Source: a virus
Direction: 5' to 3' (one strand)
DNA length: 46,660 bases
Virus record (IMG/VR): IMGVR_UViG_3300032893_003193
Location: 1-46,660 of that record
Shown here in pieces: positions 25,669 to 46,096 of this stretch (the stretch's first letter is position 1; every line of letters starts with the position of its first letter). The notes under the pieces are model-generated. The model was not told the DNA's origin. It did no database searches and saw only the letters and a list, made by a program, of their open reading frames with translations. The translations under genes were made by a program, and so were the position numbers.

Positions 25669-27207
25669 TTATTTTTCTTCTTTTTCATCGTCATAATCGT
25701 TCAAGATATATGTTCCGATGCTTGTTAATATTGTTGCTACTGAAACGGCATTTTTCAATGCCATCTCTGTTGCCTTAAATGGTTCGACCACTCCACTTTC
25801 CAAAAGATTTTCATACTCCCCAGACTCAGAGTTGTACCCAACATCTCCCTTATACTTGGTCCAATCTGGTTTAATCTGTGAGTTCTTTGCGATCTGTTTA
25901 ATGCTCGATGTAGCAATGGTGAGTGCCGTATCGACTTCTTCTTCTGAGTCGTAGTCTTTTGTTTCCATAGCCGCGAATATAGAAACCCCACCACCAACCA
26001 AGTATCCGTCTCGTTTAGCAGCACGGGTTGCGTTAATAGCGTCCTCGTATCGGTATACCTTTTCTCGTGCTTCGCGTTCTGTGCGTCCACCAATCTTTAG
26101 AGTGACGATACCATTAGTCAGAGATGCCAGACGTTGCTTTGCTTTAGTATTATCTTTATCCTTAGCAACCTCTTCCTGGAGATACTTAATACGTGCCTTG
26201 AGATCACGACTCTCTGACATCGCTGTAAAGAGAATCTTCTGTGGGTCGGCAGTAAGCGTGTTGGCGATTACGAAGTCGTCTCGTGTAATTGAGTCAACGC
26301 GTCGTCCACCAGACTCGGAAATTACCTTACCACCAAGATAGGTAGCTAGATCGTCGAGTGCTACATCATCACTAATCTTTGCAAGAACGACTCCAATAGT
26401 TCCTTGTACGTGGTTCGCAATAAATGTATTGGGTGCGTCACCAAGGAAGTCCTTAGCTACTATACAGATATTACGGAACCCCTGGTTAATAGCAACGCGG
26501 AGAATGTGTTCAGCTTCCTCAGCGTAGTAAATGGTTTTATCAAAGATAATAACCGGGATCTCTCGATGTGCCACCTGTGGTTTTGCGGGGTCTGTATACA
26601 GGTTTTGGTACATCATCCCTTGAGGAATACGAAATCCAACCTGCTTCTCCACAACCACCTCATCGCGTGGGTACAGTTCAAGATACACCATTCCATCCAA
26701 CCCAGCGGTGTTGATAGTTTCGATTACCTTATTAGCAATTTCCTTATCACCACCCGCTGAGATTGTCGCAACCTCTTTCAGTTGCTTATCATCTTTGACT
26801 GTCTTTTTGATCTTCTTGAGGCGCGAAACCAATTTATCAGCAACTTTATTAAACATGTCACTGATCTCTTTGTGAGTCATCCCCTTCTCCTGGAACTCGA
26901 TTGACTTGTTGATAAATGCGCGAGAAAATAGGACAGTGGTAGAAGTACCATCCCCAGCCTCTTGGTTTGTACGCAGAGATCCGTCTTTGATAATCTCTAG
27001 CACAGCATTTTCAATAGGATCTTTAAACGCCATCCCACGAAGTACGGTGATACCATCGTTGGTGAGTTCAAAGTTTCCTTTATCTGTTTCGTACAGCACG
27101 TTCCGTCCCATCGGTGAAATGGTTTCAATCACAGGGACACTTACCTTATCCACAGCAGCAAGGACTTGCTTGCGAATATCACCCTCCCTAAATAGTTGTT
27201 TGTTCAT
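25669..27207 (-). CDS. groEL: GroEL-like chaperonin
   Basis: A 512-residue Cpn60, slightly short of the bacterial 540-550. Nucleotide-site motifs are present: PMGRNV at 32-37, NDGITV at 50-55, GDGTS at 85-89, and EDAINATRAA with the catalytic aspartate near residue 395, followed by VGGGVS. The C-terminus is acidic (DEKEEK) and lacks the GGM repeat tail. It would form a folding chamber, probably for the capsid or other virion proteins. The start overlaps the end of the NinG-like gene by 20 bases. Sequence is clearly divergent from host-type GroEL, as in other phage chaperonins. Confidence 0.92.
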   Translation of the reverse strand: MNKQLFREGDIRKQVLAAVDKVSVPVIETISPMGRNVLYETDKGNFELTNDGITVLRGMAFKDPIENAVLEIIKDGSLRTNQEAGDGTSTTVLFSRAFINKSIEFQEKGMTHKEISDMFNKVADKLVSRLKKIKKTVKDDKQLKEVATISAGGDKEIANKVIETINTAGLDGMVYLELYPRDEVVVEKQVGFRIPQGMMYQNLYTDPAKPQVAHREIPVIIFDKTIYYAEEAEHILRVAINQGFRNICIVAKDFLGDAPNTFIANHVQGTIGVVLAKISDDVALDDLATYLGGKVISESGGRRVDSITRDDFVIANTLTADPQKILFTAMSESRDLKARIKYLQEEVAKDKDNTKAKQRLASLTNGIVTLKIGGRTEREAREKVYRYEDAINATRAAKRDGYLVGGGVSIFAAMETKDYDSEEEVDTALTIATSSIKQIAKNSQIKPDWTKYKGDVGYNSESGEYENLLESGVVEPFKATEMALKNAVSVATILTSIGTYILNDYDDEKEEK

Positions 27208-37108: not shown

Positions 37109-37366
37109 TCATATGAAACCATTATCGTCAAGATATTTTAAAGCCTCTTTAAAAGTCATACCCATAGCAATTAGGAAATCCAAAGCATTCTGGCCATTTT
37201 TAGAGCAACCGAAGCAATGAAATCCCCCGTCAGGGTAAATAACACAGCTCGGGGTCCTTTCATTGTGAAAAGGACACCGAATGTGCTGTCTACGAAAAGA
37301 TGTTAGTCCTAATACTTGCTGGACCTTAATCTCTCTAGCCCGTTTAACTACCAATTCCCACTCCAT
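37109..37366 (-). CDS. CHC2-type primase zinc-binding protein
   Basis: An 85-residue protein that is only the DnaG-type zinc domain: RCPFHNERTPSC (Cys31, His34) and FHCFGCSKNG (Cys51, Cys54). In bacterial primases and T7 gp4 this domain is N-terminal and reads the priming site on single-stranded DNA. Here it is a separate gene downstream of the TOPRIM-helicase gene, overlapping it by 19 bases. It must act in trans, or a frameshift could fuse it to the helicase C-terminus. Confidence 0.88.
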   Translation of the reverse strand: MEWELVVKRAREIKVQQVLGLTSFRRQHIRCPFHNERTPSCVIYPDGGFHCFGCSKNGQNALDFLIAMGMTFKEALKYLDDNGFI

Positions 37367-38832
37367 ATTTCGTCGTCTTTTTCTGGTACAGTAGCCTGGT
37401 TATCGTCAAATAATCCTGTAGAGGGGTCGAAATTAAAGATTCTCTCAGTCATGGGGCCCTTATTTTTCTGAACGTCAACCAAAATTCCCCCTGTACTATT
37501 CTCTGAAAGGAGTACGACAACCTCCGGGTCTTGGTAAAGACTCGATGAACCCTTGAGATCCTCGATATTAGGCTTCCTAGAACGCGCTATAAAGGCCCCA
37601 GGAGCGTCTAATTTGCGTAGGTGTGATACAACTATCAAGATGAGTCCAAATTCCTCTGCAACGTGTTTTAAAGCCTTTAGGGTGTCACTAATAGCCGACT
37701 CTCGGTTCGTTCCAGCGTTACGTACCAAATAGTCTAGGTGGTCGATAATTACGACCTTGATATTGAGAAACCGAGCTGACTTTTCAATAACCTGTGGATT
37801 ATCCACAATATCGGGTAGTGCAAAGTAAATAGGTAGGTCTGCAACCTTTCTAATCAACCCGTCCCAATCCTCGTTAGAGTACCTTGACATGTCTTCCTCG
37901 GTATTTTCGGACACAATATGCAACAGGCGTTCCCCCACACTCTCAATTCCACGCTCAAACGGTTCGACCAACACACCAATACCTTGTGAAGCAATATCTT
38001 TAGCAATATTCATTACGTAGGCGGTTTTCCCTACATTTTGACGGCCTGAAATCATAGCCATCCATCCGTTTTTAAACTTGACTTCGGGGATGTAACGAGT
38101 TTGTAAGTCAAATTTTTCCCCAGATCGCAACGTATTAATGATGTCGCCAAGGGTTTTAAACTCTCCCACAAGGAAGGTTTTAGCCTTTTGGATCAATTCA
38201 ATAATCTCCTTACGTCCATTTCCAGCCAAAAGGAAGTCATTAGCGTCCTTTTGCGGCCACTGGACACAGAAACACTTATCAGACCCTAGACGTTCCGCGA
38301 GCTTTTTAGCAGACTTCTGCCCAGGCTCATCATTATCATACGCGATCCAAATTCTAGGGATGGCAGAAACAAACTCCAACCACGGACCGAATGAATCCTT
38401 ACCGCTGGCTGGAGAGATTACATTCGTAACCCCCATTTGCCACACGGCCATGCAGTCAAACTCACCCTCGACAATTAAAATTCCTTTCTTTTTGATTCCT
38501 TCTTGCAACCCCTCGTCATTAAACATCCAAGTTTCTGCACCAGACTCGCTACCGTATTTACCCCTATCGCTATCAAGGAACCTATACTTGATGTTGATAA
38601 GTTGCCCCGACTTGTAAACAGGTATAGATATTGCGGATCGCTCACTGTCGTATCCAAGACCAAAGTGTTGTATTGTGGTGTCTGTAAGTCCTCGATCATG
38701 TAAATATTTCTGTGCTACTTCCGATCCTTTGAGTGCTTCTTGAAACTGAACTACCTTTGAAAATTCAGGGCGTTTGTATTCCACTCCCACAGTCTCACGC
38801 AGAGACTTGATTTTTTCTGTAATATTATTCAT
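37348..38832 (-). CDS. TOPRIM primase-DnaB-type helicase (Twinkle/gp4-like)
   Basis: A 494-residue replication protein. The TOPRIM domain has VEGEFD at 121-126 and AYDND at 164-168. The RecA-type helicase has Walker A GRQNVGKT at 263-270, Walker B VVIIDHLD at 360-367 and the sensor IVVSHLRK. It unwinds DNA ahead of the fork and could make primers with the zinc protein next to it. It lacks its own N-terminal zinc domain, so it matches the middle and end of T7 gp4. Confidence 0.92.
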   Translation of the reverse strand: MNNITEKIKSLRETVGVEYKRPEFSKVVQFQEALKGSEVAQKYLHDRGLTDTTIQHFGLGYDSERSAISIPVYKSGQLINIKYRFLDSDRGKYGSESGAETWMFNDEGLQEGIKKKGILIVEGEFDCMAVWQMGVTNVISPASGKDSFGPWLEFVSAIPRIWIAYDNDEPGQKSAKKLAERLGSDKCFCVQWPQKDANDFLLAGNGRKEIIELIQKAKTFLVGEFKTLGDIINTLRSGEKFDLQTRYIPEVKFKNGWMAMISGRQNVGKTAYVMNIAKDIASQGIGVLVEPFERGIESVGERLLHIVSENTEEDMSRYSNEDWDGLIRKVADLPIYFALPDIVDNPQVIEKSARFLNIKVVIIDHLDYLVRNAGTNRESAISDTLKALKHVAEEFGLILIVVSHLRKLDAPGAFIARSRKPNIEDLKGSSSLYQDPEVVVLLSENSTGGILVDVQKNKGPMTERIFNFDPSTGLFDDNQATVPEKDDEIWSGNW

Positions 38833-39041: not shown

Positions 39042-39803
39042 TTAGTGCGTGAGTCCAATAATTGCGTTTGCGTATGCTTCCAGGCCCAAATTAGACAGTC
39101 CCGGTGCAGTACCAACCTCCAACACGTAGCAATTTCCCTCTCTATCTCGCAAAATGTCCACAGCACCAAAATCAAGACCGAGTGCAGAAACCGCCTGTTT
39201 CGCCAATTCTTCGACACTCGGACGACGTGTGACAGCCCTAATAAACTCCCACCCCAACGCAGCAGACCTAATCATATCGTCAGACTGTGCATTAGATACG
39301 ATCCTGCCGTCAATACGCTTCACCTTTTTAGCGTAGTCAATAATTTCACCACGGAAAACATGCACCCGATACTCTCGTGAACGTGGTATGAACTTAGTAT
39401 AAACTGGAACATCGGGCAAGGCTTCACCCTGTCTCATAATAGTGATACCCTCACCCGAGTGTCCTTCAAGGACCGCGCGGCAAACTATCCTGTTCCATCC
39501 TTGTGTTTCCGATTTTGTGGTAGTAAAGGGCACTGTTTGCACATGGTGATCTCGTAGGCATACAAGTGTACGTAGCTTGTTCGCAGATATACGAACAGCA
39601 GCGGGGCTATTAATAATTCCTTCGTAATTCCACTTCGGGGATTTACTACTACCCCAATTTATAACAATGTCATGACGGCGACGAACAAAAGCACCATCAG
39701 GACGAACGCGTAAGATTTTGCCTTCAAATTTAGTTTGGAGAGTGTCTTGCAGATCACGGCAAGACTGCGACCCGATTTTGTATGGATATAAAATGATCCG
39801 CAT
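39042..39803 (-). CDS. ATP-grasp ligase (RimK/phage COOH-NH2 ligase type)
   Basis: A 253-residue enzyme. Visible parts of the ATP-grasp fold: the Gly-rich loop GHSGEGI at 114-120, EYRVHVF at 144-150, LGLDFGAVD at 208-216 and metal-binding VLEVGTAPGLSN at 227-238. Such enzymes activate a carboxylate with ATP and join it to an amine, often adding amino acids to peptides or proteins. Short ATP-grasp proteins of this kind occur in phages with amidoligase genes, as here across the divergent promoter. Substrates are unknown. Confidence 0.88.
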   Translation of the reverse strand: MRIILYPYKIGSQSCRDLQDTLQTKFEGKILRVRPDGAFVRRRHDIVINWGSSKSPKWNYEGIINSPAAVRISANKLRTLVCLRDHHVQTVPFTTTKSETQGWNRIVCRAVLEGHSGEGITIMRQGEALPDVPVYTKFIPRSREYRVHVFRGEIIDYAKKVKRIDGRIVSNAQSDDMIRSAALGWEFIRAVTRRPSVEELAKQAVSALGLDFGAVDILRDREGNCYVLEVGTAPGLSNLGLEAYANAIIGLTH

Positions 39804-39811
39804 AGATACTC

Positions 39812-39976
39812 TTATTTAGTGTGGTGCGTCGTAAAAAAATAAACCTTATGTACGCACCCCTCTCGTAAACACTTACTGCTAAAAAGGTCACGAGTAGATT
39901 TCTTATATTTTATGTAGCCCTCGAATTTAAAAGCACCAGTGCGATGCAAACCAAGAGAGCATAAAAACCTACCCAT
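39812..39976 (-). CDS. Hypothetical 54-residue zinc-ribbon-like protein
   Basis: A small basic protein starting MGRFLCSLGLHRTG. Cys6 and His11 and the later SSKCLREGCVH (Cys36, Cys41, His43) could bind one zinc. It fits snugly in the 211-base gap between two leftward genes. Function unknown. Confidence 0.5.
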   Translation of the reverse strand: MGRFLCSLGLHRTGAFKFEGYIKYKKSTRDLFSSKCLREGCVHKVYFFTTHHTK

Positions 39977-40014
39977 AACTCACTAATTATATCAGAAAAT
40001 AGAACTTATGCCAG

Positions 40015-40410
40015 TTATCCTAACATAGTAAATAATTGAATTTCCCAATTGTCAACATACGACTTTAATAGTTTAGGATCGTCCCACACCTTCTCTCCGA
40101 GCGTTTTCTTGATGTACGCAGCGTAGTATTTAGCCCGGTGTTGTATCCAGTAAAAGGGAAATCCCTTTTCGTATACTGTCATAAACTCTTTCTCATCGGT
40201 GCCGTTGTGCCCCCGCCACTCAAAATGACAAAAGATAATGGCTATGATTTGATCCTCGGTGTATATCTCCAACATTTTATTGATAGAGCTTTTCGCACGA
40301 TCTGTTTCAGGAAATTCAAAATCGGTCCCAAAAAATAATTTATGGAACGTAGAATAAACCTCAAAAACTTGTTCATGGAACTCAGTTTTTTTGCTTTTCC
40401 TAGATGACAT
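40015..40410 (-). CDS. Hypothetical protein, first gene of the leftward block
   Basis: A 131-residue mixed protein with many aromatic residues (HFEWRGHN, FYWIQHRAKYYAAYIK). I do not recognise it. ATG 40410 (MSSRKSKK) is preferred; ATG 40437 would add nine codons but lie four bases from the tRNA-like element. Being first in the block downstream of the long RNA region it may be an early gene. Confidence 0.6.
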   Translation of the reverse strand: MSSRKSKKTEFHEQVFEVYSTFHKLFFGTDFEFPETDRAKSSINKMLEIYTEDQIIAIIFCHFEWRGHNGTDEKEFMTVYEKGFPFYWIQHRAKYYAAYIKKTLGEKVWDDPKLLKSYVDNWEIQLFTMLG

Positions 40411-40440
40411 AATTTGTTTATCGGTCACAACTAGCATAGA

Positions 40441-40592
40441 AAGGCTTTAGGGAATCGAACCCTAAATATAGAGTTGCCTACGTTACGTACTGCGTAACCT
40501 CAGCGGGTTTGTTAAGTCCCCTCTACATTTCAGGGGGTTAAGTACATCAGTGTTTTAAGCCAACACACGTAACCCCCGTACCAGAAAGCCTC
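40441..40592 (-). ncRNA. tRNA-like element with 7-bp acceptor stem and T-arm
   Basis: Read leftward, GAGGCTT (40592-40586) pairs with AAGCCTT (40447-40441), and directly inside the 3' strand is a canonical T-arm, TAGGG-TTCGATT-CCCTA. Between them are about 120 bases with GGGGGTTA/TAACCCCC enclosing a GTGTT/AACAC hairpin, then CCCCT/AGGGG and GTTACG/CGTAAC. There is no normal D-arm or anticodon arm and no encoded CCA. This acceptor plus T-arm layout recalls the tRNA half of tmRNA, but 152 bases is too short for a usual tmRNA and no convincing tag frame is seen. Confidence 0.45.
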
Positions 40593-41403
40593 ATATCTCC
40601 GTACCCCACCAACCCGCATGTGTGGAATAAGCCGATCAGTGGGGGGTAGGGAGATGGGTGCAGCAAGAGGCTGCAATTTGGTCCTGCCTAAGCCCAGATG
40701 GACAATGGAGGACGTGGTGTATCAGACCACTAAGTGCTTCGAGGCACCGTAAGCCACCGCAGACGCATGTATGGCGTGGGGCAGCGAGACACCAGGGAGT
40801 CGCAAAGCTGGAAACTGAGCACATGCTATAAACGAGATCCCCAGCCAAGACGTTTTGGGCCATTATGGAGTTGATTAAGTAGCACCACCATGAGCCGCAA
40901 TAAATATGAATAGATGCGGAATTGATCGCTACACCCAAGTAGTAGGCAGGGTGGTGGTGCCGAAATATGCGACGCGATGAATAACGCCCACCACCCCAAA
41001 AGTGATGAAAAAACAGCACCACCACCCCACCCACTACATGAAAGAACTATGAAAGAACACGCGCAAGAACCACTTTTTAACGGCAGCCCTACACTTAGAG
41101 GCGTTAGGGAGTCGAACCCATAGGGATATAAATCCCGGCACTACTTCGGAAATCTAGGATCGACTATTTACCTTGTGGTCCGCCTGAGTTTTACGGGTTT
41201 CAGATTGTGCTCGCAGTCCTTGCGAACCACTAGGAGCAATCATTATTAACCGGATTAACGAAGGATCAGAGCAAGGGAACATCAATACCACATCCGACAG
41301 TACGGCAGATTGTCCCAAATCTGCAAAACCACCTCACACGGGAACCTTGCGGGTCCCCATGCCCAGCGCAGTGGAGAGTCGTGCAACCCCGCTGCTACCA
41401 GAC
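40593..41403 (-). ncRNA. Large structured non-coding RNA region
   Basis: About 800 bases without a credible gene. A consensus leftward promoter at 41410-41438 would transcribe it. Hairpins include GCAGATT/AATCTGC (41304-41323), a stem capped by a GCAA tetraloop on the leftward strand (41340-41357), GGGAT/ATCCC (near 41123-41136), GCAGC/GCTGC (40659-40673), GTGGT/ACCAC (40714-40730) and a 12-base match between GGGTGGTGGTGC (40949-40960) and GCACCACCACCC (41016-41027). Phages often place very large ornate RNAs (GOLLD, ROOL) beside tRNA genes; this may be one of them or a new type. I cannot assign a family. Confidence 0.5.
41098..41122 (-). other. Second T-arm/acceptor-like element
   Basis: Leftward reading gives TATGGG-TTCGACT-CCCTA followed by ACGCCTC. 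This closely parallels the 3' end of the element at 40441 (TAGGG-TTCGATT-CCCTA, AAGCCTT). A possible 5' partner AGGCG lies at about 41181-41185, and a variable-arm-like GGGAT/ATCCC is between, but D and anticodon arms do not form. Confidence 0.3.
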
Positions 41404-41409
41404 ACGAGA

Positions 41410-41438
41410 AGTATAGCAACACGGTACTTTGATGTCAA
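41410..41438 (-). promoter_or_regulatory. Leftward consensus promoter for the RNA region
   Basis: TTGACA (41438-41433), 17-base spacer, TATACT (41415-41410). It shares DNA with the -35 of the rightward promoter at 41429-41457, so the two face away from each other and may compete. Confidence 0.78.
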
Positions 41439-41457
41439 CATTTTCTCGTGGTGTAAT
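41429..41457 (+). promoter_or_regulatory. Rightward promoter 1 for the amidoligase operon
   Basis: TTGATG (41429-41434), 17-base spacer, TGTAAT (41452-41457). Its -10 lies in the left arm of the inverted repeat at 41449-41485, so a bound repressor would block it. Confidence 0.6.
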
Positions 41458-41485
41458 ATGAAAAACCATATTTCGCATTACACCA
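41449..41485. promoter_or_regulatory. Inverted-repeat operator candidate
   Basis: TGGTGTAAT (41449-41457) and ATTACACCA (41477-41485) are perfect complements with a 19-base spacer. The centre-to-centre distance of 28 bases is near three helical turns, as for sites bound by a dimer or pair of dimers. Confidence 0.55.
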
Positions 41486-41495
41486 TAAATTTTTA

Positions 41496-41524
41496 TTGTA
41501 TTCACCTTTTTAATTTGTTAATAT
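41496..41524 (+). promoter_or_regulatory. Rightward promoter 2 for the amidoligase operon
   Basis: TTGTAT (41496-41501), 17-base spacer, TAATAT (41519-41524). It would start an mRNA about 20 bases before ATG 41552. Confidence 0.5.
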
Positions 41525-41551
41525 TATCTCCATAAACATTTATCTATTTTT

Positions 41552-43186
41552 ATGCCAGGAGCACCAGAACAAGCACCAGAAAATGCAATAAATCCAGTAA
41601 ACCCATGGGGACAGAACCATTTTGGGCTTGTACACGGTGCTGCCGAAATGGTTTGGCGGATGCAACGAGAAGCGATTTTGCAAAACGTGGAAATAATACA
41701 ACCCGCTGAGCTAGCAGTAAGACAGACACAAGTCACTCCACAAGCTACAAAACTAAAAGAACCGACCGTGTATCGCTCGAACGAAAAAGGAGAATATGTG
41801 GTGTCCACACGTCCTTTCGGTGTGGAGTACGAAATCAATTTTTCTTGGAGTAACGCAGATGAACTGCGACGCATGATCGGTGCGGAGTACAACATCGTGA
41901 GTGATGGTTCAGTACGAAATGGCTTGGAGGTAGTAAGCCCGGTACTCCAGGGGCACGCCGGAGAACAACAGGTATTCAAAACATGTGCATCTATTAAGAA
42001 ATTAAAAGGTGCCACTGACGAGTCATGCGGTTTGCACGTCCACCTGGATGCAGCAGACTTCTACAAACCCACTGTAGCAAAGTCATCCAGCCTTATTAAT
42101 ACCTACATTAAGTATAAAGAAAAGAAAAGCCACGACAAGGTTTTGTGGATTGTCCACAGCTCTGTTATTAAATTCCTCATCAAAAGAGGAACCACAGAAG
42201 ACAGGCATCTTGCCGATTGCATGACCGGACGCTCACCATTTAGCGCAAGCAGCACCGACCGACTCATTAAGTACATGAATGACGCTACGTTTTTCCCGCA
42301 CCGCGTTCTCTTTGTGAACCACAAAGGAAAAATGGACCAACCACAAACATGCAAAATCTTGGCACATGGAGTACTAGGCCGAAGAAATAGGATTTTTAAA
42401 GAAATGCCCGTAGACAAAAACGGAGACTCAAAACTCGACGAGTGGAACGGACGACCCGCAATAAACCCTATCAACGGATACGTGTATATTGACCCCACAC
42501 GTGCAGATAAAATGCGTGTAATTATCCTTCCATTGGTAAACGAAGACACGAAACAACTCAGTAGATTAAAGCGTCTTGCCGCATTCTACATTGCATTTGA
42601 TGATGTGATTGCATCAATGCTTCCATCGGACCGCAGAGCGAATGACTTTGCGCGACGTGTATCACAGCGTGCGTCGCTGGAAGACATTAATTCATGCAGA
42701 TCGGTGCGGGACTTTATGCGCCTCTGGTTCCACCTACATGACGACGACACCATTGAAACTGCACAACACAATCGTCGCCACCACTCACGATATTGTGGTT
42801 TGAACCTCCACGCCTTGCTAAAACATGGTACTGTGGAAATTAGGTACCTCGGAGGCACAATCGACCCACACGAAATCATACAGTGGGTATACTTACACCA
42901 AACAATCTTAGACATTGCAGCCGACACGAGTGACCCACGATTCAACATGGAACTTCTGTCTAAGGCGTCAATGATTATTCGCCCAGATTACAAGGCGGAT
43001 GTATTCTTTAAAAAGCTGAAACTCCGTCCCGAAACAGAGCAATACTTCCGTGAACTCATCGGGAGACTGAAAGAGGACGACAGAACGCTGGTAGACGAGC
43101 TAATTGAAGAAGAGGCGCGAGTAGTACAGGACGACTACGAAGAACGGATGTTAGTATTAGAAGATGATGGTGACTTTTTAAACTAA
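41552..43186 (+). CDS. Amidoligase (COOH-NH2 ligase, glutamine-synthetase-like fold)
   Basis: A 544-residue enzyme of the Amidoligase_2 type. Motifs: FGVEYE at 89-94 (metal-binding glutamates), DGS at 118-120, LEVVSP at 125-130, CGLHVHLD at 159-166, RYCGLNLH at 413-420 and TVEIRYLGG at 427-435. The family is related to glutamine synthetase and gamma-glutamylcysteine ligase and joins a carboxylate to an amine with ATP. A Pro- and Gln-rich N-terminal stretch of about 85 residues is extra. It heads an operon with an amidotransferase 2 bases downstream. The real substrate is unknown; peptidoglycan or peptide modification has been predicted for such phage genes. Confidence 0.88.
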   Translation: MPGAPEQAPENAINPVNPWGQNHFGLVHGAAEMVWRMQREAILQNVEIIQPAELAVRQTQVTPQATKLKEPTVYRSNEKGEYVVSTRPFGVEYEINFSWSNADELRRMIGAEYNIVSDGSVRNGLEVVSPVLQGHAGEQQVFKTCASIKKLKGATDESCGLHVHLDAADFYKPTVAKSSSLINTYIKYKEKKSHDKVLWIVHSSVIKFLIKRGTTEDRHLADCMTGRSPFSASSTDRLIKYMNDATFFPHRVLFVNHKGKMDQPQTCKILAHGVLGRRNRIFKEMPVDKNGDSKLDEWNGRPAINPINGYVYIDPTRADKMRVIILPLVNEDTKQLSRLKRLAAFYIAFDDVIASMLPSDRRANDFARRVSQRASLEDINSCRSVRDFMRLWFHLHDDDTIETAQHNRRHHSRYCGLNLHALLKHGTVEIRYLGGTIDPHEIIQWVYLHQTILDIAADTSDPRFNMELLSKASMIIRPDYKADVFFKKLKLRPETEQYFRELIGRLKEDDRTLVDELIEEEARVVQDDYEERMLVLEDDGDFLN

Positions 43187-43188
43187 TT

Positions 43189-44550
43189 ATGTGTGGAATT
43201 TTATTTGTCAGTGCACGAGAGGGGAGAAACGCCGTAAAGCCAACTTTAAGGCGGTGGCGTAAGCAAAAACACCGAGGCTCCGAGGGTTTCGGATACGTTA
43301 CTATCGACCAAAATAATAAAATTGGCGAAGTAATGCGTGCAACCACCGGGACCGAAATAGAAAAGATGCTGCGACAAGAAACCGCAAAGCACATCATGTT
43401 CCACCACCGAATGCCGACATCCACGCCTAACTATGTGGAAGCGACACACCCCCTTGTTGTTCAGTGGAATAAGCTCGACCACGATTATTACATCGTACAC
43501 AACGGGGTTATTTCCAACTGGCAAGAAACATTCGAGAAGTACAAAACAGAGGGATATGTATTTCGTACCGAATTTCACCAGTACAAAGCAGAGGAATTTG
43601 TAAACTCTAAAAAGGTTTACTCCGAGGACCCGGAAATAAAAATCAATGACAGCGAATCATTTGCTATTGATCTTGCAATGTTCCTTGATGGTAAAAAGGA
43701 CGCAATCGAAAGCGTGGGGAGTATTGCGTTTATTGCTATCCAAACAGACAAAAACAGTTACGTAAAGAAAATATTTTGGGGCCATAACTACCGCAACCCA
43801 CTACTCCTTGAACAAGACAATACTGTGTTCGCCCTTAGATCAATGGGTGGTAGCTCTAAGGACGTAAAAACAGATGTTCTATTTAGTTTGGAATGGGACA
43901 CCGGAGAAATCATTGAAAAGTCAATAAACATCGGATACGGTTTTGCAGTTGATAAAACCAAAGGATCGAATGATTGGGAGCGATACTGGCCCAAGGAAAA
44001 AACCACAGGATTTAACACGGCAAAAACAAAAGAAATCGACCAGGGGATTACTAGGTTTCTCGACCCAAACTATCCCATGCTTCCCGATGGTATGGTGGCC
44101 TCTCCCATAAAGACTAAGGACATGTGGGAACGGGAACGCGAACAGCCAGCAGAAGACTATTCCGACGATTACGATTACGATTTTTTAGAAGAAAGAGGGG
44201 CCGACGAACCCTCCATTATAGAAATATTCGGAGGCGACGACGACGCACAAAAAAAACTCATGCAAGAGATCGTGGAAATGAGCGAGTATAAGCAGGGCGA
44301 CCCCGACCACATCCGCACACTACGCTCCGAACTCCGCAATGCACTATACGACTACGCACGATCACAAAACGAGTACCACGACGCTATACTATTGATTAAG
44401 GAGTCTAAGGGGGACAACTACGACCACCGAGAAAAAGACGCCGCGTGGGGGCTTTTAGAGGCTGCTAGGGCCGATGTAGCAGACTGTCGAAAGAACGTAG
44501 ACGCAACCGCAGCAGAACTAACAGCGTGGATTAGTAGCGAGAAATGGTAA
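43189..44550 (+). CDS. Class II glutamine amidotransferase with acidic extension
   Basis: A 453-residue protein. The N-terminal Ntn-hydrolase domain has Cys2 (MCGI) as nucleophile once Met is removed, KHRGSEGFGY at 27-36, HHRMPTST at 72-79, HNGVISN at 104-110 and NDSES at 153-157, like the glutaminase domain of GlmS and asparagine synthetase. It frees ammonia from glutamine. After residue 285 a region rich in Asp, Glu and Tyr, then a coiled-coil helix pair, makes a 170-residue extension I do not recognise, possibly the dock for a ligase. It follows the amidoligase by 2 bases and probably feeds it ammonia. Confidence 0.88.
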   Translation: MCGILFVSAREGRNAVKPTLRRWRKQKHRGSEGFGYVTIDQNNKIGEVMRATTGTEIEKMLRQETAKHIMFHHRMPTSTPNYVEATHPLVVQWNKLDHDYYIVHNGVISNWQETFEKYKTEGYVFRTEFHQYKAEEFVNSKKVYSEDPEIKINDSESFAIDLAMFLDGKKDAIESVGSIAFIAIQTDKNSYVKKIFWGHNYRNPLLLEQDNTVFALRSMGGSSKDVKTDVLFSLEWDTGEIIEKSINIGYGFAVDKTKGSNDWERYWPKEKTTGFNTAKTKEIDQGITRFLDPNYPMLPDGMVASPIKTKDMWEREREQPAEDYSDDYDYDFLEERGADEPSIIEIFGGDDDAQKKLMQEIVEMSEYKQGDPDHIRTLRSELRNALYDYARSQNEYHDAILLIKESKGDNYDHREKDAAWGLLEAARADVADCRKNVDATAAELTAWISSEKW

Positions 44551-44621
44551 ATCATTGCTGTCAAGTACAACTTCATGGTATATTTATTCATGGATTTAAT
44601 GTGAAGATTTAAAAATAAATT

Positions 44622-44663
44622 ATGTGTACAAATATTAAGGTTTGTAAGGTGTGCGGAAAATAA
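44622..44663 (+). CDS. Micro-ORF ahead of the second ligase
   Basis: A 13-codon frame (MCTNIKVCKVCGK) ending one base before the next gene (TAA-T-ATG). It looks like the first half of a zinc ribbon, cut off after CKVCGK. It may serve reinitiation, or be the remnant of a zinc-ribbon or HNH gene. Confidence 0.35.
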   Translation: MCTNIKVCKVCGK

Positions 44664-44664
44664 T

Positions 44665-45726
44665 ATGCGAGAACTATCCACGCAGCAAGACTTGAAAATG
44701 GGATGCGACCCCGAGTTTTTCATCACAAAAAACGGTAAAGTAATCGGGGCCGAGCATGTACTACCGAAAGAGGGACTAATCGGACCAAGGGGTAAATTCA
44801 TCATTGATGGTGTGCAAATCGAAATGAACCCCGCGCCATCGTACTGTCGTGGATTGTTGGGAAACTATATCGGTGACTGTTTTCGCCTTCTTGAAAGACA
44901 CCTGGAACTCGGTGGTTATAAGAAAGAGGGTGTTAGCGTCAGTTTTGATAATACAGTAAAGATCACGCGCACTAATTTTGAAAAATTGAGCAATAACTGC
45001 AAGCAATTCGGATGCAGCGTAAGTAATAACGTGGGACCAGACGGACAAATCATGCGCTCATATATCGACGTAGACCCCACAGTATATCGTTCACGCTCCG
45101 GTGGTGGACATATCCATTTCGGTGATTATGAATACACCAACCGCCCCGGACAAGTTAAGAAAGCACTAAAAAATGTACAAGTAATGGTTCCTGTGCTTGA
45201 TATTATTCTCGGCAACACAATGGTCCTCATTGATCGCGACCGAGGAAACAGGGAGCGACGCAAAACATACGGACGTGCTGGTGAGTTTCGACTACCTTCA
45301 TACGGTTTGGAGTACCGCACACCTTCTAACTTTTGGTTAAAATCTCCTGTACTATTTTCTCTCGCGTTTGGCCTTGCACGACTCGCTGTTCAGCTTGTTG
45401 TAGAAAGTGACCGTGAAAATAACTACGTCAAAGAACTCCTATCGCGTGTGGACATGGAGGATATACACGACGCAATCAACCGTAACTCAGCACTAAAAGC
45501 ACGCAGAAACTTTGACAAGATACTAGACTTGCTCATGGATATTATCCCCGCCGCTACCGTCACTACATTTTATCCATTCAGTGCATACAACATCGAACAA
45601 TTTAATAAGTTTGTTATCGGGGTGCAAAAGGAAAAAATCAAATTCACTAAACCATTTGAGACGTGGCTACGAATGGACAACGCACACAACCACGGAATTA
45701 ACGACTACCTAAACAGAATGAAGTAA
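44665..45726 (+). CDS. phiEco32-like COOH-NH2 ligase type 2
   Basis: A 353-residue enzyme. GCDPEFF at 13-19, DGVQIEMNP at 48-56, GGGHIHFG at 146-153, YGRAGEFR at 202-209 and GLEYRTPS at 214-221 are the marks of the phiEco32-like COOH-NH2 ligase-type 2 family, of the glutamine-synthetase-like fold. It differs from the first amidoligase, so two carboxylates or two steps are likely. A gamma-glutamyl-cyclotransferase-like gene follows by 4 bases. Family sure, substrate unknown. Confidence 0.92.
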   Translation: MRELSTQQDLKMGCDPEFFITKNGKVIGAEHVLPKEGLIGPRGKFIIDGVQIEMNPAPSYCRGLLGNYIGDCFRLLERHLELGGYKKEGVSVSFDNTVKITRTNFEKLSNNCKQFGCSVSNNVGPDGQIMRSYIDVDPTVYRSRSGGGHIHFGDYEYTNRPGQVKKALKNVQVMVPVLDIILGNTMVLIDRDRGNRERRKTYGRAGEFRLPSYGLEYRTPSNFWLKSPVLFSLAFGLARLAVQLVVESDRENNYVKELLSRVDMEDIHDAINRNSALKARRNFDKILDLLMDIIPAATVTTFYPFSAYNIEQFNKFVIGVQKEKIKFTKPFETWLRMDNAHNHGINDYLNRMK

Positions 45727-45730
45727 TAAT

Positions 45731-46096
45731 ATGGTTATCATCGGCGTTTACGGATCACTGAAAGAAGGATTTTATAACCACGACCCCTATATGAAGGGTG
45801 CACGAAAGATCATGGACACTAAGATTTTCGGTGCCATGGAGCTAATAAACGGCTCATATCCTATGCTTTTTGAGGACGGGCGTTATCCACAGTTTGATAG
45901 AATCCACGACATAGAGATATACGAAATTGATGATACAATGTTTGAGGCGATAGAGTATATGGAGTTGTTATCGGGGTACAAAATGGCACTCATGGACGTG
46001 GAAGGGATGGACGTTCACGTATTCCTCGCGCCACAAGGCCGCGCTTTCAACGAAAAAAACTTTATCGAATCTTATTCAAAAGAATTATTTAACTAA
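45731..46096 (+). CDS. Gamma-glutamyl cyclotransferase-like (AIG2/GGCT) protein
   Basis: A 121-residue protein of the GGCT fold. VYGSLKEGFYN at 6-16 forms the substrate loop and the TMFEAIEYMEL segment (69-79) holds the catalytic glutamate in the usual place. These enzymes release 5-oxoproline from gamma-glutamyl amines. Next to two ligases and a glutaminase it may trim or edit a gamma-glutamyl amide, or protect against unwanted products. Confidence 0.85.
   Translation: MVIIGVYGSLKEGFYNHDPYMKGARKIMDTKIFGAMELINGSYPMLFEDGRYPQFDRIHDIEIYEIDDTMFEAIEYMELLSGYKMALMDVEGMDVHVFLAPQGRAFNEKNFIESYSKELFN

Follow-up and report, generated by a model that had tools for sequence, protein, structure and literature searches.

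The window examined here is the whole of a virus record in IMG/VR (IMGVR_UViG_3300032893_003193; 46,660 bases), and it carries five genes for amide-ligation enzymes arranged as a divergent cassette. It is a rearranged member of the phage amidoligase cassettes, and the phage lineage that carries it has no close named relatives. During infection the cassette may assemble, and be able to trim back, an amide derived from glutamate or a short non-ribosomal peptide in the cytoplasm, a reading to which we give a probability of about one half; a small glutamyl amide or peptide is favoured as its product, with attachment to a host protein as the second choice. Cassettes of this kind were predicted by Iyer et al. 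in 2009, cited here as quoted in later papers (PMC10580990), and an earlier note on the window, made from the sequence alone, was correct in saying that such sets had been predicted before without a defined product. What the cassette makes is of more interest than this particular copy; no product has been reported in the literature consulted. The same enzyme set occurs in phages of Escherichia, Pseudomonas, Vibrio, Proteus, Citrobacter and Cellulophaga, and tractable laboratory phages are available in the kuraviruses on E. coli K-12, tf and PaP3.

Composition of the cassette

The rightward genes follow the order Amidoligase_2, Cys2 class II glutaminase, phiEco32-type COOH-NH2 ligase and GGCT, with the ATP-grasp ligase on the opposite strand:

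39042 to 39803, minus strand: ATP-grasp ligase, RimK/LysX-like (PHROG 2599), 253 amino acids (aa); the metal-binding ExN motif reads E229-V-G231
41552 to 43186, plus strand: Amidoligase_2, a glutamine synthetase (GS)-like carboxylate-amine ligase, 544 aa; Pfam 1.9e-21
43189 to 44550, plus strand: class II glutamine amidotransferase (GATase; Cys2 glutaminase), 453 aa; Pfam GATase_6 1.8e-6
44665 to 45726, plus strand: COOH-NH2 ligase type 2 (phiEco32-type, PF14395), 353 aa; Pfam COOH-NH2_lig 1.4e-15
45731 to 46096, plus strand: GGCT/GGACT-fold gamma-glutamyl cyclotransferase (AIG2/YtfP family), 121 aa; Pfam GGACT 8.8e-8

All five open reading frames (ORFs) were found where the earlier note had placed them, open and at full length. 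The five domain identities and the divergent layout that it had proposed were confirmed, by Pfam for the four rightward proteins, each of which scores above the curated cut-offs, and by PHROG 2599 for the ATP-grasp protein (match at 1e-63); its reading of the chemistry as amide ligation is reasonable and stands. Loss of active-site residues, which the note had named as grounds for giving up its reading, was looked for in alignments of 11-21 family members: such residues are intact in four enzymes, and one metal ligand is changed in the ATP-grasp ligase. Two GS-fold ligases, a class II glutaminase and an ATP-grasp ligase in one neighbourhood are the combination by which a phiEco32-type cassette is recognised.

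Amidoligase_2 scores over the cut-off of PF12224 with the E, HxH and ExR residues present, and keeps the family-invariant G90, E92, E94, D118, S120, E126, H162, H164, E429 and R431. The COOH-NH2 ligase keeps D15, E17, H149, H151, R209, E216 and R218, within DPE, GGHxH and GxEYR motifs. An AlphaFold2 model of this protein (predicted local distance difference test, pLDDT, 89; predicted template modelling score, pTM, 0.91) has a glutamine-synthetase/YbdK fold and matched YbdK, gamma-glutamylmethylamide synthetase, glutamine synthetase, Dop and glutamate-cysteine ligase; four matches were under E 0.001 and TM-scores were moderate (0.3-0.5), with the top 28 matches all from one superfamily. A profile search of the PDB with the two ligases gave no meaningful sequence match. 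The glutaminase keeps C2, H72, R74, T77, N105, G106 and D154, as expected of a class II (Ntn) enzyme, and its profile relatives are the PurF and GlmS glutaminase domains, with matches confined to the N-terminal part; in the charged, helical-looking C-terminal part Pfam and profile searches detected no synthetase or isomerase domain. The GGCT protein has the YGSLK motif and catalytic-type Glu78 of the GGACT/GGCT family, and its profile relatives are YtfP and GGACT.

The ATP-grasp protein falls under every Pfam cut-off (R2K_3, 23.7 of 26.3 bits; a second R2K model, 15.5 of 26.2 bits), and with these scores secure membership of the R2K clade was dropped in favour of a RimK-like assignment. The profile of its family matched RimK-type ligases in the PDB at 1e-16 over positions 42-250, namely RimK, LysX and cyanophycin synthetase. 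Asp216 and Glu229 are kept, but at position 231 the window and a sister contig, L022 (IMGVR_UViG_3300037094_000013), have Gly instead of the Asn that at least 90% of the sample conserves and that the homologue of L026 bears.

Recurrence and inheritance

Searches with tblastn returned 308 phage records for the COOH-NH2 ligase and 313 for the ATP-grasp ligase, with nearly identical host break-downs, and annotated Kuravirus, Bruynoghevirus, Zobellviridae, Grimontviridae and crAss-like regions hold the same enzymes together, nearly always beside a primase/helicase. Single-sequence scans of IMG/VR with three of the window proteins, and with the ATP-grasp protein, found no relative; an alignment-based scan found 80 loci. 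A profile survey covered 100 loci, gathered nearly all through the COOH-NH2 ligase and in a few cases through the ATP-grasp ligase, so that its counts are conditional on that choice; some loci are near-duplicates (e.g. L047/L048 and L079/L082) and the counts are not independent. The four core enzymes occurred together in 77 of the 100, with a median span of 5.5 kb, and in 58 of the 72 loci whose flanks reach at least 5.5 kb either way, whilst reversed-sequence controls gave zero matches. A neighbourhood that recurs in dozens of phage loci when the controls are empty represents more than chance, and the neighbourhood in related phages, which the earlier note had proposed to check, proved to be strongly conserved. 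The COOH-NH2 ligase was found without the other three core enzymes in 13 loci, ten of them with long flanks. At three loci (L042, L043 and L065) the survey placed a second COOH-NH2 ligase where Amidoligase_2 would stand, which Pfam confirmed for L042, and this substitution makes the combination of two GS-fold ligases, a glutaminase and an ATP-grasp ligase look like a constraint. Among the 77 full cassettes GGCT was present in 47, a class I GATase in 45 and either of them in 66. The analysis narrows the core to a pair of GS-fold ligases together with a glutaminase and a RimK-like ligase, the gamma-glutamyl-cleaving step being swappable. A search for a bacterial home of the ligase, by a narrow search pattern, yielded 11 loci, all on metagenome-assembled contigs and about half with the same cassette, and found among them no chromosomal context revealing function.

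The sister contig L022 has the primase and ATP-grasp genes leftward and Amidoligase_2, the class II glutaminase, the COOH-NH2 ligase and GGCT rightward. It is like the window in this identical divergent layout, in the ExG form of the ATP-grasp motif and in its terminase (69%) and portal (70%), but differs in that the four core enzymes are at 34-46% identity, in extra genes of a family termed c11 and in a full-length initiator gene. Seven further loci (L025, L026, L029-L032 and L034) have terminase and portal in common with the window and a co-directional cassette. Identity to lineage members is 24-36% for Amidoligase_2 and 22-34% for the glutaminase. In a comparison of nine phages, the distances of all four enzymes, taken one by one, were correlated with those of TerL (rho 0.66-0.86, Mantel p <= 0.006); since the cassette distances track terminase and portal, the cassette passes down with the lineage. 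It is thus part of the inherited genome and stays under selection, fast though it diverges. The c11 proteins are small and conserved, several of them starting with CCGIGE/CCAVGE-like sequences, and lie beside the cassette, sometimes in two copies (L022 11091-11441 and 12060-12527); they also occur in L024, L025, L026, L027, L028, L029, L032 and L033, and the one scanned had no Pfam match.

A further protein, P200 (phrog_4877/11055; e.g. L062 10881-11567), accompanies 40 of the 77 full cassettes, including those of Kuravirus, Bruynoghevirus and Zobellviridae, and lies between their two ligases. Neither P200 nor P300, partners in other lineages, was found by profile in the window lineage, and because P200 is absent from the window's sister lineage also, it marks out a sub-type rather than the cassette as such. 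A hidden P200 fusion in the window was considered and rejected, the best profile E of 0.17 being not above noise. The model of P200 (pLDDT 84) gave a best PDB fold match of E 0.025, which is sub-significant, with EF-P/eIF5A-type barrels recurring among the matches. The phages CVT22 (L010, Citrobacter) and CW02 (L011, Salinivibrio) have families of 60-80 aa proteins between the cassette genes, several with FKxGDxV-like starts, whose C-termini are nearly all LENE in the CVT22 cassette and LLEENV or similar in CW02. These endings were considered as a ligation tag, but the letters are those of the ribosome site, TTGGAGAATGA(A/G) or GAGGAGAA, of a translationally coupled next gene; since this site dictates them and the same letters occur outside the cassette, the tag was rejected.

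Proposed pathway and alternatives

Characterised relatives of the cassette enzymes (RimK/LysX, GS/YbdK, PurF/GlmS and GGACT) mostly act on glutamate, glutamine or glutamyl substrates; the nearest of them all handle glutamate or glutamine, and stepwise assembly of a glutamyl amide or peptide, followed by trimming, is favoured on this account. From the domain identities, the conserved residues, the fold of one ligase, the neighbourhood and its co-inheritance, each of which has direct support, we infer an order of steps, substrates, a product and a purpose. The Cys2 glutaminase would plausibly release ammonia from glutamine, and the RimK-like ATP-grasp enzyme would use an acyl phosphate to link a carboxylate with an amino acid, glutamate being the most likely. 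Two more amide bonds, to ammonia in one case and to an amine in the other, would be formed by the two GS-fold ligases at the expense of ATP. Finally GGCT could plausibly strip gamma-glutamyl groups as 5-oxoproline, in deprotection or recycling, as do BtrG or GGACT; many relatives have a class I gamma-glutamyl-hydrolase-like GATase in its place, which may take the same part. Mass spectrometry of a preparation of phage SU10 detected its ATP-grasp, glutaminase and YtfP-type homologues among the early gene products (PMC4281155).

The targets named in the earlier note, which were peptidoglycan, a virion protein or a small molecule, were guesses. Tagging of proteins in the manner of RimK or Pup, with an amino acid or peptide joined to one of the host or of the phage, is a doubtful second choice: the ATP-grasp protein is nearest to RimK/LysX ligases, which modify proteins or carrier proteins, Dop of the Pup system is among the fold matches of the COOH-NH2 ligase, modification of host proteins has been proposed as the task of R2K ligases (PMC4431377), and many of the sub-significant P200 matches are to EF-P/eIF5A, proteins that are modified in nature. 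However, the window lineage has no P200, the LENE C-terminus in CVT22 is accounted for by the Shine-Dalgarno sequence of the next gene, and known GGCT enzymes act on small gamma-glutamyl compounds. A role at the cell wall or envelope, in which stem peptides of peptidoglycan or some other surface acceptor would be amidated to block superinfection or lysins, was proposed for phiEco32 in the prediction of Iyer et al. as quoted in PMC10580990; we consider it unlikely. Amidation of peptidoglycan glutamate by MurT/GatD is known in bacteria (PMC3267633), but among the five proteins neither a Mur-ligase domain nor a class I GatD partner was found, and the class II GATase is without the asparagine-synthetase domain of AsnB-type amidases; the peptidoglycan target of the earlier note is thus left without direct support. 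Moreover, the conserved neighbour of the cassette is a replication module, and cassettes span phages of Proteobacteria and Bacteroidetes, for which a common surface chemistry is not evident in these data.

The conserved place beside the primase/helicase would agree with a modification of phage DNA bases that resists host nucleases, and the Gordonclarkvirinae, with cassettes in L008 and L016, show remarkable restriction resistance with no known modification pathway (PMC11990801). Such base modification is nevertheless improbable, weakened as it is by phage tf, which has the whole cassette and whose virion DNA is cut by five enzymes, RsaI, HpaI, EcoRV, SmaI and HaeIII, with sites that jointly cover all four bases (PMC3517423); for kuraviruses deoxyuridine has been suggested as the simplest case (PMC11990801), and among those window proteins that were searched, none was recognisable as a base-hydroxymethylating or glycosyl enzyme. 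A similarly small chance attaches to a novel amino-acid-derived modification of DNA or nucleotides, or the charging of a dedicated acceptor protein, that would protect replicating phage genomes, and would account both for the position beside the primase/helicase and for the restriction resistance of kuraviruses.

Assembly of a small glutamyl amide or peptide remains the preferred reading, and several observations weigh against it. We know of no assay of any cassette enzyme. The metal-ligand Asn of the ATP-grasp ligase is replaced by Gly in the window and L022, and the Gly-bearing enzyme may be altered or weak. Eleven of the 77 full cassettes hold neither GGCT nor a class I GATase; P200, for all its frequency elsewhere, has no counterpart in the window; and no substrate or acceptor gene was identified. 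The least probable of the alternatives is that the cassette survives in this phage as a remnant, decayed or without function, with which the ExG motif, the quick divergence of Amidoligase_2 and the glutaminase and the truncation of the neighbouring initiator gene would agree. Against decay, none of the five frames is broken or shortened, and purifying selection is needed to keep the other catalytic residues in proteins that have diverged to 20-45% identity.

Genomic surroundings

The window also encodes a terminase, a portal protein, a ribonucleotide reductase and a TOPRIM/DnaB primase-helicase. The leftward operon comprises the ATP-grasp gene, the primase/helicase and a replication-initiator-like gene, and the cassette adjoins the replicative primase/helicase, a 63-aa ORF alone separating the latter from the ATP-grasp gene:

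37348 to 38832, minus strand: TOPRIM/DnaB primase-helicase; the cassette stands beside this gene in most lineages
40015 to 40437, minus strand: replication-initiator-like protein, C-terminal part, 140 aa; homologues are full length in L022 and L026, with an HTH_36 domain in that of L022
40438 to 41551, no strand: divergent spacer of 1.1 kb between the two operons; in L022 the spacer is ~2 kb, in the same place

The primase zinc-finger (CHC2) is a separate small gene (37109-37366, minus strand) downstream of the TOPRIM-helicase gene and overlapping its end, and this split arrangement is kept in L022, L025, L030, L031 and L034. The divergent spacer was examined for iterons and riboswitches with none convincing, and promoter-like sites in it were not above chance (11 against 14.3). 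Two tRNA T-arm-like motifs lie on its minus strand, the whole window having 3 against 0.38 expected, and at the same place in L022 (4828-4895, minus strand) Rfam scores a tRNA just short of its threshold (28.4 of 29 bits), the anticodon loop of which is odd; these are possibly decayed or unusual tRNA genes. Elsewhere, a full-length GroEL/Cpn60-type chaperonin gene (25669-27207, minus strand; Pfam Cpn60_TCP1 1.8e-33) adjoins a NinG-like gene. PADLOC models of known anti-phage defence systems gave no match in the window.

Comparison with known systems

At the level of single enzymes, the family of the phage ATP-grasp protein resembles the RimK/LysX alpha-L-glutamate ligases by its profile match, but the window protein is far under the NCBIfam equivalog cut-offs and its context is phage-specific. 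The COOH-NH2 ligase model has the fold of YbdK, gamma-glutamylmethylamide synthetase and glutamine synthetase, whereas a sequence relationship to them is not detectable. As a cassette, LUZ24, PaP3 and tf (Bruynoghevirus, Krylovvirus) have the same five enzymes, the GGCT of tf being annotated as BtrG-like, but in a single early operon with P200 present, and with ~30-35% identity over part of the COOH-NH2 ligase. In phiEco32 and other kuraviruses (phi32_77 to phi32_86; L016) the COOH-NH2 ligase, Amidoligase_2, class II GATase, ATP-grasp ligase and YtfP/GGCT protein likewise lie beside the primase/helicase, there co-directional and with P200 (phi32_85) between the ligases, whereas the window has a divergent layout, another gene order, no P200 and the ExG form of the ATP-grasp ligase.

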